64,000 bases of DNA. Source: Siniperca chuatsi (lineage: Eukaryota > Chordata > Actinopteri > Centrarchiformes > Sinipercidae). The position numbers were made by a program, and so were the translations under genes. The stretch covers positions 16,674,167 through 16,738,166 of the forward strand of contig NC_058043.1 in the NCBI RefSeq assembly GCF_020085105.1, written 5' to 3'. Each line of letters opens with the position of its first letter. Position 1 is the first letter of the stretch. Of the stretch, positions 4,301 through 10,300 are shown piece by piece. The notes under the pieces were generated by a model that was not told the origin of the DNA, searched no databases, and worked only from the letters and a program-made list of their open reading frames with translations.

Positions 4301-7300
4301 GTCAGACTCAAGCTCCTATGTAGGTGCATCCCTCCCAAACAACCAACTGAAAGTGTTCAGTGCTTAAATTTGTCATAGTGTTTATAAGTTAAACTTGCAA
4401 TGACTTACTTGGCCTCCTCCAGCTCCTCAGTGCGCTGAATGGCATCAGTCTCGTATTTGGCTCTCCACTGGGCCACCTCGCTGTTGGCCTTGGACATTGC
4501 CCGCTGCAGCTCAGACTTGGCTTCCTGCTCCTCCTCATACTGCTCTCTGAGCAGGTCGCAGTCATGACGAGATGACTGAACAGCATGAGCCAGAGCGTTC
4601 TTAGCCTTACAAAGAAATAGAGACATTTTTTATTAACTAAAATGTGTCTAACTTAAAGCTTTGAACTGAGTTGTTTTAATAGTGTAACACTGCAGGTGTA
4701 GTGTTTTTAATGTGCACATACTTTAACTTCCTCTTCAACATGCCTCTTGAACTCCTCAATCTGCTGGGTATAAGCCTGCTTGCTCCTTGTCAGCTGAGAG
4801 ATCAGGGCTTCTTTCTCCTCCATCTGGCGACTGATTTCACCTAAGGAGACACAGAGAGTTAGAACTAATCTAACACAAATGTGGGAATTGCATTGGAAAA
4901 ATGAGATTAGGATTAGTAGAAAAATACATCAAATATATTTTTCTCACCATTCTCTGTTTGCAGTCTTGCCCTTTGTACCCCAATGTCATTCAATTGTCGC
5001 ACATGTTCTTCATTTTTGGTCCTCAGCTCACTCAGTTGATCCTCAAGAGTACGACACAGTTTCTCCAAATTGGTCTGAAATTAACAAAAGTTGTGTTGAT
5101 TTTCAAGTGATGCAATGTAGTCTAATTCAGTGAGAGGCAAATAAAGGCAGAGCTGTAGCAGATAAATTTTTGTTGACTCTGTTGCAAGTTAAATGTTTTT
5201 ACTTTACCTTCGATTTCGAGACAGTCTCCATATTGCTGCTGAGGTCATCGATCTCCATCTTGTATTCGCTTTTCTCTTTCTCCAGCTTCTGTTTGACTCT
5301 CTGGAGGTTATCAATCTGTTCTCCCAGCTCTGCCACACTGTCAGCCTGCTTCTTGCGGAGAGCTGCAGCGGTGGCCTCATGCTGCAGGGTGGACTCTTCG
5401 AGATCCCGACGCAGCTTCTGAAACTCTGCCTCCCGCTTTTTGTTCATCTCAATCTGAACAGACGTTGCTCCACCAGCTTCTTCCAACCTCTCGCTGATCT
5501 CCTCAAGTTCCCTGGAGAGATCAGACCTCTGCTTCTCCACCTTGGCCCGAGCAGCCCGCTCAGCCTCAATCTCTTCTTCCAGCTCCTCAATACGAGCCTA
5601 ATATTTACATTTAGAAAAAAAAAACAGCCACATTTTAATAAATTTCTGTCTACAAGTCAAGCGCATCTGGGTCATCTAAAGTCAGTGGAGTGCAGTCACT
5701 GTTAGATACTATTAAGATACTGTACCAACCTGAAGTTCTTTGATCTTTTTCTGAAGCTGAGCAGAAAGTAATTGCTCATCCTCAATCTTGCTAAGAAGCT
5801 GGCTTGTTTCAAAGTCCTTCCTGTGCGGGGCAAAGCAAGTAAGCAAAACTGAGTTGAAATTTTTACTTATACTGAGCTTAATTTCTTAACTGTCTATTGT
5901 TAGCCTGAAAATCATTGAAAGAATCACATTAGTTTTCTAACATAATTTTGAAAATAGAGAATACGATTTAAATTGATTTCATCAGTGATGTGGTAACTTT
6001 GCTTACCAGCATTTAAACAGGGTTTTCCCTGGATTTTTTTGAGACAAAGGTGGCAAAGGCTGGAGAACATGCACTTAAGGAAAAACAATCACGATTCGAC
6101 AGATGAAAGTGTCCATAGGGATTTAAATTTCATACCAATATGGAACAAAAAGATGAAAAACAAAGATTGTGACAAACAACTGTGTTTATTTCTAGGGCTG
6201 GTTATCATTTGAAATTTATCGTCAAGGCTTTATTACATTTTGGATTGGTTAAATAGATGAAATGGGAATTTCTGCTTTCTAAAATGATCTCTCAAGTACC
6301 GGCGCTCAAAAAGTAGGCTACTGAGGTTCGATATCCAGTCCTAGTTACTTCTGTAACTTAAGCTAACCTAGCTTTTATTGCAAACACACATTGGTTTCCC
6401 CTATGGATAACGGCAAATCATTGCTTACCTTGATCTTGCAGAAATTGTGAATGTGTTGCCTCCACACTCGAGTTTCGCATGCAAGGTGCATGCTCGGTAT
6501 AAGCGCATTAAAGCAGTTGCTAATTAAAGGCACAATGGTTTTGGCACAAAGAAAAAAGCCTTTGGGTTTTTGTCGGAATTTTCAACAAAGGCGGTGGCCA
6601 ATAATAAGCAGGGAAAATCCTGAACAGGACTGACTGTTTTCACTGCGGGTTTGTGAACAACTTTTTCAATATAATATGTTCTACTAGGCTAGAGCAAGAT
6701 TTTATTCTGGCTACTGTATGCTGAACAAATACAATTAGGTCAGACATGAATACACTGTTTAAAATGATGAGTCAATGTTCACTCACTTCTTTATTTTTTC
6801 CTCCGACTGCTGCTTGTCATTCTCCAGATCCATTATGGATTCATGGGCCAGTTTCAGATCCCCTTCAAGCTTTCTTTTAGCTCGCTCAAGATCCATACGG
6901 ATCTTCTTTTCTTGCTCCAGGGAACCTTCAAGCTGTTTTAACCGACATTAGGCATTATGTTTTGTTTTGCATTTTTAAGGGGACTGATATCACTGTTTGT
7001 TATTATTACATACGTCATCCACTTGCTGCTCCAGCTTGGTCTTGGCCTTTGTCAGAGTGTTGACTTTGTCTTCCTCTGCCTGCAGATCATCAAGGGTCTG
7101 CTGATGGGCCTCTTGGAGGGCTTTCTTCTCTTTGGTCAACTTGACAATGGTCTCATCTTGAGATGTCATTTCCTCCACCAGGTTTTTAACCTAAATAGTT
7201 TATATAAATAAAATAATTTAATATTTGATCAGAGTTTATTTCTGATAAGCACAGTTTAGTAATCTGAAACGAGAGGCACGAACCTTGTTCTCAGTGGCAT

Positions 7301-10300
7301 GTTTCTCCTTTTCCACTTTGGCCAGGGTGAGCTCCAAGTCATCAATGTCTTTCTTCAACTCAGAGCACTCGTCCTCCAGTTTCCTCTTCTTTGCAGTCAG
7401 CTCAGCATTGACCTCTTCCTCATCCTCCAGTCTCTCAGCCGTCTCTTTGACTTTAGCCTCAAGCTGGATTTTTGCTTTAATGAGCCCCTCACACCTTTCC
7501 TCTGCATCACTGAGGTTTTCACTTTCCTAAAAGTCAATGCAAACAGGTTCACATCTTTGCCAAAGCAGTAATTTGATGTAGGAGATTTAGTAGACATGCA
7601 CATGCGGTGTGATGATCCAGCTTACAGATTGCACTTGCAACAACAGGTCATTCTTCTCTTGCAGCAGAGAAACCATCTTCTCCTCCAGTTCTTTCTTCTT
7701 AGCCAGAGCCTTTGCTAGCTCCTCTTTGGTCTTTTCAAAGTCCTCTTTCATTTGCGCCATCTCTTTTTCAGTCTCTGCACTCTTCAGCAGAGGCTTAATC
7801 TTGAAGTATAGCTTCATCCATGGCCAGGTTTTGACATTCATGAATGAGCGGATGTTGTACTGAATAGAATAAATTGCCTCCCTGGGGAACACAGGTATCA
7901 AAGTAAATAAACAGATTAATTCAGATTTTTAAAGCTATATTGATGATTGATTGAAGTATGGATTGGGTTTTCAAAGTAAATATTTTGTTTGAAAATTACA
8001 ATCAAGTTGTCATCTACAAACAGTTACCCATGTATGAAGCTAAATGTCTACATTACCTGCGCTCCATCATCTTGACAAACTCTCTCCTCATGAGGAAACC
8101 TCTGCAGAGAGCCTGAGTCATTGTGACCAGGATAGCAAGTTTGTCATCTCTCATCTCCTCCAGAGTTCCCAGCAGACCAGCTTTGAAGAACACCTAAAAC
8201 AAAGTGTTACGTGACATGAATTGTTACGCTTACTTGCAGTATCAGGGTTAGCAGTTAAAAAAGAAAAAAACACCCATAACAGACAAACAGATTACCTTTG
8301 TGTGTCCAAATTTGTACTGAGTACTGTCAACATTAATAGAGCCCAAGAGTTTCTCTGAGGCCTTTTTGTTGTCGATGAATTGTCCCTCAGGAATGACACT
8401 GGCATTCAATACTTTGTATCTGATTGGAGGAGGGAAATTAATCAACGGTGAATAATTTATCATAATATTGTCAAAAATATGGTGAATTTTAGTAATTACC
8501 TCTGCTTGAAGTCACCATAGAGGACTCTGCTGGGGAAGCCCTTTCTGCAGATCCTGATACCTTCCAGCACACCATTACACCTCAGCTGATGGATGACCAG
8601 GAAATTCTCCATGAGACCTTAAAGACATGCAAGTTCAGTCTTGTGTTTCATAATTACAGTAGTAATGCTTAAATGAATACTGATATTAGGCTTACCAGGA
8701 GTCTTTGATTCATTTGGAATCAAACAACGTACAAAATGAGGATGAGTGCTCCTTAAGTTGGTCATCAACTTGCCTAAATTCTCCTGAAATATGGAAAAAT
8801 TCAAATTGTTACTTAATAAATAATGACAAGGCCTATTTCCTTGGATGTTACCTTTTTAGCAGCATTTGGGAATATAGTGGTGTACATATTGTACTGTAGT
8901 TTTGTAGTGAGGCAGTTATTTGTGATGCTTACCCTGAACAGAGCAGATACGGTCTGAAAAGACCCACCCTTTTTTTTGCCGCCTTTTTTCGCACCACCTT
9001 CAGCTGTACCATGAAGATTAAATTTGAGTTATTAGCTTGAACAAATGCTAATAACTCAAATACATTTTTATTTAAACTGTATTCTTATACTTACATCACA
9101 AATCAACCAGTATATTTTAAAATGTAATGAAAACACCAGTAAATGCCAAATTTTGTTCTTTAAAATATAATCTCTACCTTCTGTTGAGGCATGTGATGCA
9201 TAGAGGTGAGCCAACAGCTTCACTGAAGACTTCTGGTAGAGCTGAACCACTGAGTCGTTCAGGGGGTCTTTGTTCTTATCCAGCCAGCCAGTAACATTGT
9301 AATCAACAGTGCCAGCGTAGTGCATCAGGGCGAAATGGGCCTCAGCTTTGCCTTTTGTAGGTTTGGGTTTCTGGAAGGGGGCACTTTTACCAAGATGCTG
9401 GTCATACAGTTTGTTCTTGAAGGTGATGTCTGTAGCCTTAGGGAACATGCACTCCTCTTCAAGGATGGAGAAGATGCCCATTGGCTGTTAACAATAACAC
9501 AAAATAAAAAGTCCTGTACTGTCATACTATGGTGGGGATAATTATTTTTTCATCATTGTTAAAATTGTCTCCTGTAGTACCTTCTCTATAAGCTCAATGC
9601 AGGCAGCCAAGTCCATGCCAAAGTCAATGAATTCCCATTCAATTCCCTCTTTCTTGTACTCTTCTTGCTCCAGGACGAACATGTGGTGGTTGAAAAACTG
9701 TTGCAGTTTTTCATTGGTGAAGTTGATGCAAAGCTGCTCCAAGCTGTTGTACTAATTAAATTAAGATATCAAAGGTAAGTAAAGGCCTTAAGTAACATTA
9801 ACTAAAAATGTAATTATTCATACTCTCAGCTTTAAATGAAGCTGCATCAGATTATGTAGTATCAGGCAAGCATACTTACATCAAAAATTTCAAACCCAGC
9901 AATATCCAGGACACCGATGAAAAAGCTTCTGGGCTGCTTTGTGTCCAGCATCTCATTGATTCTGACGACCATCCACAAGAACATTTTCTCATAGACAGAC
10001 TTGCAGAGAGCCATGACGGAATTGTTGACCTGATTTTACAAATGAATAATACAACATTAACAAGGGCGTTGTAAAAATTAAGAAAATTGATTTAATGTTT
10101 AAGGAGTAAACAGGTTAAAAAGCTATGATCCATGAGAGCCATCGTTGCATTGTGAGCCTTAAGTCAGAAGTCAAAGTATTATCTATATGTAAAAGGAGCG
10201 GGTCCCCTTCCACAGAGGTCGCCATGTTGCACCGCCATGTTTCTACAGTAGCCCAGAACGGACAAACCAAACACTGGCTCTAGATAGGGCAGTTTGCGTT

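Follow-up and report, generated by a model that had tools for sequence, protein, structure and literature searches.

Pair-switching tracts of near identity point to recurrent gene conversion among three myosin heavy chain genes in a 64-kb stretch of the Siniperca chuatsi genome

The stretch of the Siniperca chuatsi genome analyzed here, which we call the window (64,000 nucleotides; positions 16,674,167 to 16,738,166 of contig NC_058043.1), contains three sarcomeric myosin heavy chain (MYH) genes, all of them intact, and we focus on a block around exons 22 to 24 that is nearly identical in the three genes, introns included. Gene A (1309..13500) lies on the minus strand, inverted with respect to gene B (23002..37404) and gene C (48131..59749), both on the plus strand; an earlier reading made from the letters of the window alone (the sequence-only reading) had described one of the partners as inverted, and this is indeed the case. 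Each gene has a complete coding region of 39 exons, numbered here as coding exons 3 to 41 following the scheme given for lamprey MYH genes in the available part of PMC3869912, with GT..AG at all 38 introns and a single terminal stop. They code for proteins of 1937 (A), 1938 (B), and 1937 (C) amino acids, which are identical at 1806 (AB), 1861 (AC), and 1799 (BC) of 1938 aligned positions, counting the terminal stop symbol; triple values are given below in this same pair order. The gene models are template based, with gene C fixed first, its exons projected on A and B, and all three checked. A model built on codon usage mis-called some exons and was dropped. At the level of single exons, the top-ranking PDB entry for exon 27 is Myosin-4 (1.2e-59), and exon 16 matches the Pfam family Myosin_head (5.8e-31). 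Exon 23 alone falls under the Pfam cutoff for Myosin_tail_1 (20.7 versus 38.1 bits), and no relatives of its protein were confirmed in scans of genome_contigs and viral_contigs.

The block of exons 22 to 24 spans 868 bp in each gene (A, 7014-7881, minus strand; B, 30011-30878, and C, 53052-53919, plus strand), its ends coinciding with the start of exon 22 and the end of exon 24, with 15/7/14 differences and a core of 465 bp in which A, B, and C do not differ at all. Intron 22 (99 bp; A, 7527-7625, minus strand; B, 30267-30365, and C, 53308-53406, plus strand) shows no differences, and intron 23 (93 bp; A, 7191-7283, minus strand; B, 30609-30701, and C, 53650-53742, plus strand) shows 2/1/1, just as the sequence-only reading had stated for both. 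Its description of the flanking exons as nearly identical also agrees with the counts, which are 11/4/13 per 256 bp for exon 22, 0/0/0 per 243 bp for exon 23, and 2/2/0 per 177 bp for exon 24. The block itself is real, but at 7191..7881 it had been drawn too short, as the homogenized sequence extends through exon 24 to position 7014.

Both edges are abrupt and fall at intron boundaries. Depending on the pair, the 50 bp preceding exon 22 match at 16 to 21 positions and the 50 bp following exon 24 at 15 to 21, and introns 21 and 24 are unlike. Identity in 50-bp windows is 88 to 100% within the plateau, 18 to 46% before it, and 17 to 33% in windows lying wholly beyond it. A sharp plateau in windows of this size had been set beforehand as a test of conversion, and the paralogues indeed show one, with identity raised inside two sharp limits. 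Collapsed or gap-filled repeats, by which the assembly would have put one sequence in three places, could leave a similar picture, given that near-identical repeats of 868 bp are difficult for short reads and that the assembly sequence alone was compared. Such an artefact is, nevertheless, highly improbable, as each gene has private differences within the block (in each of the 18 variable columns a single gene departs from the other two: A in 4, B in 11, and C in 3) and the tracts found elsewhere join other pairs of genes, which one gap-filling error would not produce.

When all 38 introns were compared in all three pairs, identity turned out to be bimodal. Taking more than 0.80 matches per column as near-identical, 8 of the 38 introns are so in at least one pair, with a best-pair score of 0.91 to 1.0. 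The other 30 are alike in no pair and score at most 0.59 in their best one (the top value belonging to intron 34); shuffled intron controls (n = 60) gave a mean of 0.38 and a maximum of 0.49. The near-identical introns are 15 and 30 in AB, 10 and 31 in BC, 36 in AC, and 22, 23, and 35 in all three pairs. The sequence-only reading, according to which most other introns do not align, was thus right for 30 of 38 and missed six (10, 15, 30, 31, 35, and 36), with intron 35 being alike in all three genes. It had also named uniform intron identity as the observation that would speak against conversion, and this was checked and not seen. A uniform recent duplication is ruled out by the 30 introns that are unlike in every pair.

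Outside the exon 22-24 block, the near-identical tracts form a mosaic in which the closest paralogue changes from region to region. Genes A and B share a tract over exons 15 and 16 (A, 9178..9751, minus strand; B, 26531-27113, plus strand), in which intron 15 has no differences over 96 aligned bases plus 9 gap bases and exon 16 has 2 in 307; gene C is diverged here, with 33/303 differences to A in exon 16. Genes B and C share a tract over exons 10 and 11 (B, 24906..25198; C, 50174-50467; both plus strand), with 4/90 differences in intron 10 and 2/104 in exon 11. Around exons 30 to 32, the partner switches at one exon. The exon 30-31 tract, 540 bp with 3 differences, joins A (4066..4605, minus strand) and B (32848-33387, plus strand), C having a different intron 30, and the exon 31-32 tract joins B (33204..33636) and C (56552-56984), both on the plus strand, with 3 differences in 433 bp and an identical intron 31, which is different in A. 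Exon 31 itself is identical in A, B, and C. A second three-way block comprises exons 35 and 36 with intron 35 (A, 2407-2825, minus strand; B, 34549-34969, and C, 58024-58444, plus strand). Past it, the likeness of A and C reaches into exon 37 across intron 36, which is identical in these two (158 bp) but measures 718 bp in B; the resulting exon 35-37 tract (A, 2078..2825, minus strand; C, 58024-58773, plus strand) has no substitutions in intron 35 (2 gap bases) or intron 36. Exon 27 (390 bp; A, 5208..5597, minus strand) has 14/11/13 differences and 5 to 7% divergence at third positions, with both adjoining introns unlike in every pair.

Stickleback MYH clusters have been proposed to change copy number by repeat recombination (available part of PMC12776057), and a recent duplication via unequal crossing over, rather than conversion, could be invoked for the three genes of the window as well. 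After such an exchange, the copies should be alike over the entire length of one flank of the junction. The patches found here are internal to otherwise diverged genes and end on both sides, and one of the genes is inverted, all of which makes this explanation barely credible.

Four long introns belong to a single gene each, the remaining two copies measuring 79 to 175 bp in every case: intron 21 of B (28759-30010, 1252 bp), intron 36 of B (34970-35687, 718 bp), intron 24 of C (53920-54618, 699 bp), and intron 25 of A (5821-6786, 966 bp). They may be insertions, which may perhaps block conversion.

The likeness of introns 22, 23, and 35 in all three genes is also what would be expected of a conserved functional element in the introns of the block, kept alike in A, B, and C by purifying selection. 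Such constraint, however, does not account for introns 10, 15, 30, 31, and 36, which are near-identical in one pair only, with the third gene at 0.18 to 0.52, about the shuffled level, nor for the plateau taking in silent sites of exons 22 to 24. As to a conserved RNA element, which the sequence-only reading had named as counterevidence if present in these introns in distant fish, the Rfam search of the 64-kb window gave no family at gathering score, and the sole match up to E 1 in 7000-7900 had 16.9 bits against a cutoff of 60, which is chance level. The fold z-scores of intron 22 (+0.41) and intron 23 (+0.60) are no better than those of shuffles, so that neither a known family nor a better-than-shuffle fold was found in these two introns. 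Taken together, we consider intronic constraint very improbable.

The coding alignment, from which exon 17 was left out for its length difference, has 5743 columns, 649 of them variable, with 381 silent variable sites. We applied a run test of our own, a GENECONV-like shuffle of silent sites and not GENECONV itself (10,000 shuffles; p values uncorrected for three tests). The longest pair-concordant silent runs were 25 for AB (p 1e-4), 10 for AC (p 0.017), and 8 for BC (p 0.009); the test of this type that the sequence-only reading had suggested is therefore nominally significant in all pairs, strong for AB and modest for the other two. Exons 22 to 24 also hold the longest interval free of silent differences (579 nt), a length that 5,000 random placements never attained (p 2e-4), so that together with introns 22 and 23 identity is seen to be raised at both silent and noncoding sites. 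For individual exons and pairs, third-position divergence runs from 0 to 67%, being 0 in all pairs in exons 23, 31, and 36 and 40 to 60% in all pairs in exons 13, 18, 28, 33, and 38. Exon 17 of gene B (27382-27455) has one codon more than that of A and C and encodes a different lysine/glycine-rich stretch, which we take to be the loop 2 region; the altered stretch could change motor kinetics.

Some exons appear homogenized by themselves. Third-position divergence is at most 5% in 14 of 111 pair-exon combinations in which neither adjoining intron is shared by the pair, and the AC combinations of this kind include the neighboring exons 3-4 and 30-32. This would be the mark of conversion templated by spliced transcripts (complementary DNA), which homogenizes exons without introns. 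Transcript templating, however, leaves the intron-bearing tracts unexplained, including the exon 22-24 block, all 38 introns are kept in A, B, and C, and the A-C identity of exon 31 may be transitive via B, through the AB tract of exons 30-31 and the BC tract of exons 31-32. It is very unlikely as a general account, but it could have contributed to the exon-only patches, although not to the exon 22-24 block. For these patches a single-exon DNA tract is also possible, as one reading among others.

The near identity within these otherwise diverged genes is thus sharply bounded, switches between pairs, and bears introns. In our interpretation, three old MYH paralogues have undergone interlocus gene conversion repeatedly, and the exon 22-24 block is one of its recent results; we assign this a probability of about 0.87. 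The sequence-only reading had invoked recent gene conversion, which the plateau and the bimodal introns support, as a single event, which they do not: more than one event is needed, because three alike copies require at least two transfers and different pairs are joined by the tracts elsewhere. Repair of a break in one of the genes would proceed by copying a neighboring paralogue that matches inside an exon, more often a long one; copy synthesis would continue through a short intron where the next exon also matches and would end where the introns are no longer alike. Exons 22, 23, and 24 are long (256, 243, and 177 bp) and the introns between them short, so that one transfer could cover the whole stretch; to make all three genes alike here, no fewer than two transfers would be needed, one of them involving the inverted gene A. 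Three points weigh against this interpretation: the comparison covers three genes of one assembly, without an outgroup or reads to fix direction, donor, and assembly fidelity; the AC and BC runs on silent sites are modest; and the exon-only patches share neither adjoining intron. If conversion is recurrent, it would decide which parts of duplicated myosins can specialize, and whole-gene trees would be risky for MYH orthology.

Homogenization also follows exon length. In the 37 exons compared (all but 17 and 41), mean third-position divergence is lower the longer the exon (Spearman -0.54, p 6e-4), and for the closest pair the coefficient is -0.60. The correlation is -0.62 when amino acid divergence is controlled, -0.48 (p 0.017) in the 24 exons not adjoining a homogenized intron, and weaker, -0.34 (p 0.042), when GC content at third positions (GC3) is controlled. 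Introns flanked on both sides by exons of at least 165 bp are homogenized in 5 of 6 cases, versus 3 of 32 for the others, with values of 5/7 versus 3/31 at a cut of 150 bp and 7/17 versus 1/21 at 120 bp. As three cuts were tried, the threshold-free Spearman correlation of intron homogenization with flanking exon length (0.50, p 0.0015) is the fairer figure. There are exceptions. Introns 14 and 34 are not homogenized even though both of their flanking exons reach 150 bp, and intron 10 is homogenized with flanking exons of only 99 and 104 bp. The genes are also alike in exons 10 and 39, which are short, and in exon 16, a long one, likeness is limited to AB.

This relation, which is post hoc and comes from one locus, suggests a homology-length limit on conversion, with diverged introns acting as firebreaks. 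We tentatively propose, as something possible rather than probable, that exons over about 150 to 165 bp exceed the homology length needed and are homogenized again and again, that shorter ones between diverged introns escape and approach saturation, and that introns are overwritten mainly between long exons. If true, multi-exon tandem genes would be a natural gauge of the minimal germline homology for conversion, and the segments of the protein able to diversify between isoforms would be set by where the introns lie; if the relation holds in other genes, the homology requirements of conversion would be measurable from genomes alone. In these genes, segments coded by longer exons tend to stay tied together and those coded by shorter ones to diverge, so that exon-intron structure may channel isoform evolution. 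For MYH, this relation was not found in the literature searched, among the matches listed (titles and abstract openings, with few subscription journals), and it deserves to be pursued further. Across 36 exons (6, 17, and 41 excluded), GC3 rises as divergence falls (rho -0.59), to which codon-usage selection may contribute. GC-biased conversion was not used as evidence because homogenized introns are no richer in GC than the others (0.330, n = 19, versus 0.320, n = 95; p 0.41).

Regarding the rest of the window, a short near-perfect palindrome of 51 bp (37809-37859; 94% match to its own reverse complement) lies just downstream of gene B and is the sole self-BLAST row (E 1e-8, low-complexity filter on) that starts between or outside the genes. 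Between B and C, the minus strand carries the remains of a long interspersed nuclear element (LINE)-like retrotransposon (40844-42100 and 42539-43300) with reverse transcriptase (RVT_1) and endonuclease domains. Upstream of gene A there is a fragment of a Tc1/Tc3-type transposase (14379-14828, minus strand; Pfam HTH_Tnp_Tc3_2).

Gene conversion within skeletal myosin multigene families is named in the title of Moore et al. 1992. A work on the evolution of fish MYH genes, McGuigan et al. 2004, is cited for gene conversion in the available part of PMC12776057. By title and citation only, these works concern the same gene family and the same process; the present case differs in having base-level tract boundaries, introns included, and an inverted partner. 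The stickleback MYH3C cluster is likewise made of tandem fish fast MYH genes, and the accessible text of PMC12776057 offers two explanations for their within-species grouping, one of them being extensive gene conversion; it also mentions two inverted MYH clusters of three in zebrafish. In stickleback, the process studied is copy-number change of a 17.6-kb unit, attributed to microhomology-mediated break-induced replication (MMBIR) and nonallelic homologous recombination (NAHR) (PMC12776057, same part), whereas here we see intragenic patches among diverged copies. The mechanism that we propose fits what a review of Caenorhabditis paralogues says, in its available sections, on intron divergence, homology length, and orientation: diverged introns may impede conversion and compact ones may favor their inclusion, the length of homology is among the main determinants, and genes in either relative orientation undergo conversion (PMC3966223). 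The hindrance of conversion by diverged introns is, accordingly, already in print in those sections (PMC3966223). Surviving tracts in Caenorhabditis cluster at 50 to 200 nt, and these sections report no relation with exon length inside a single long gene of many exons (PMC3966223). Gene conversion in skeletal MYH families is likewise already in print, and the present locus is a well-resolved new example of it.

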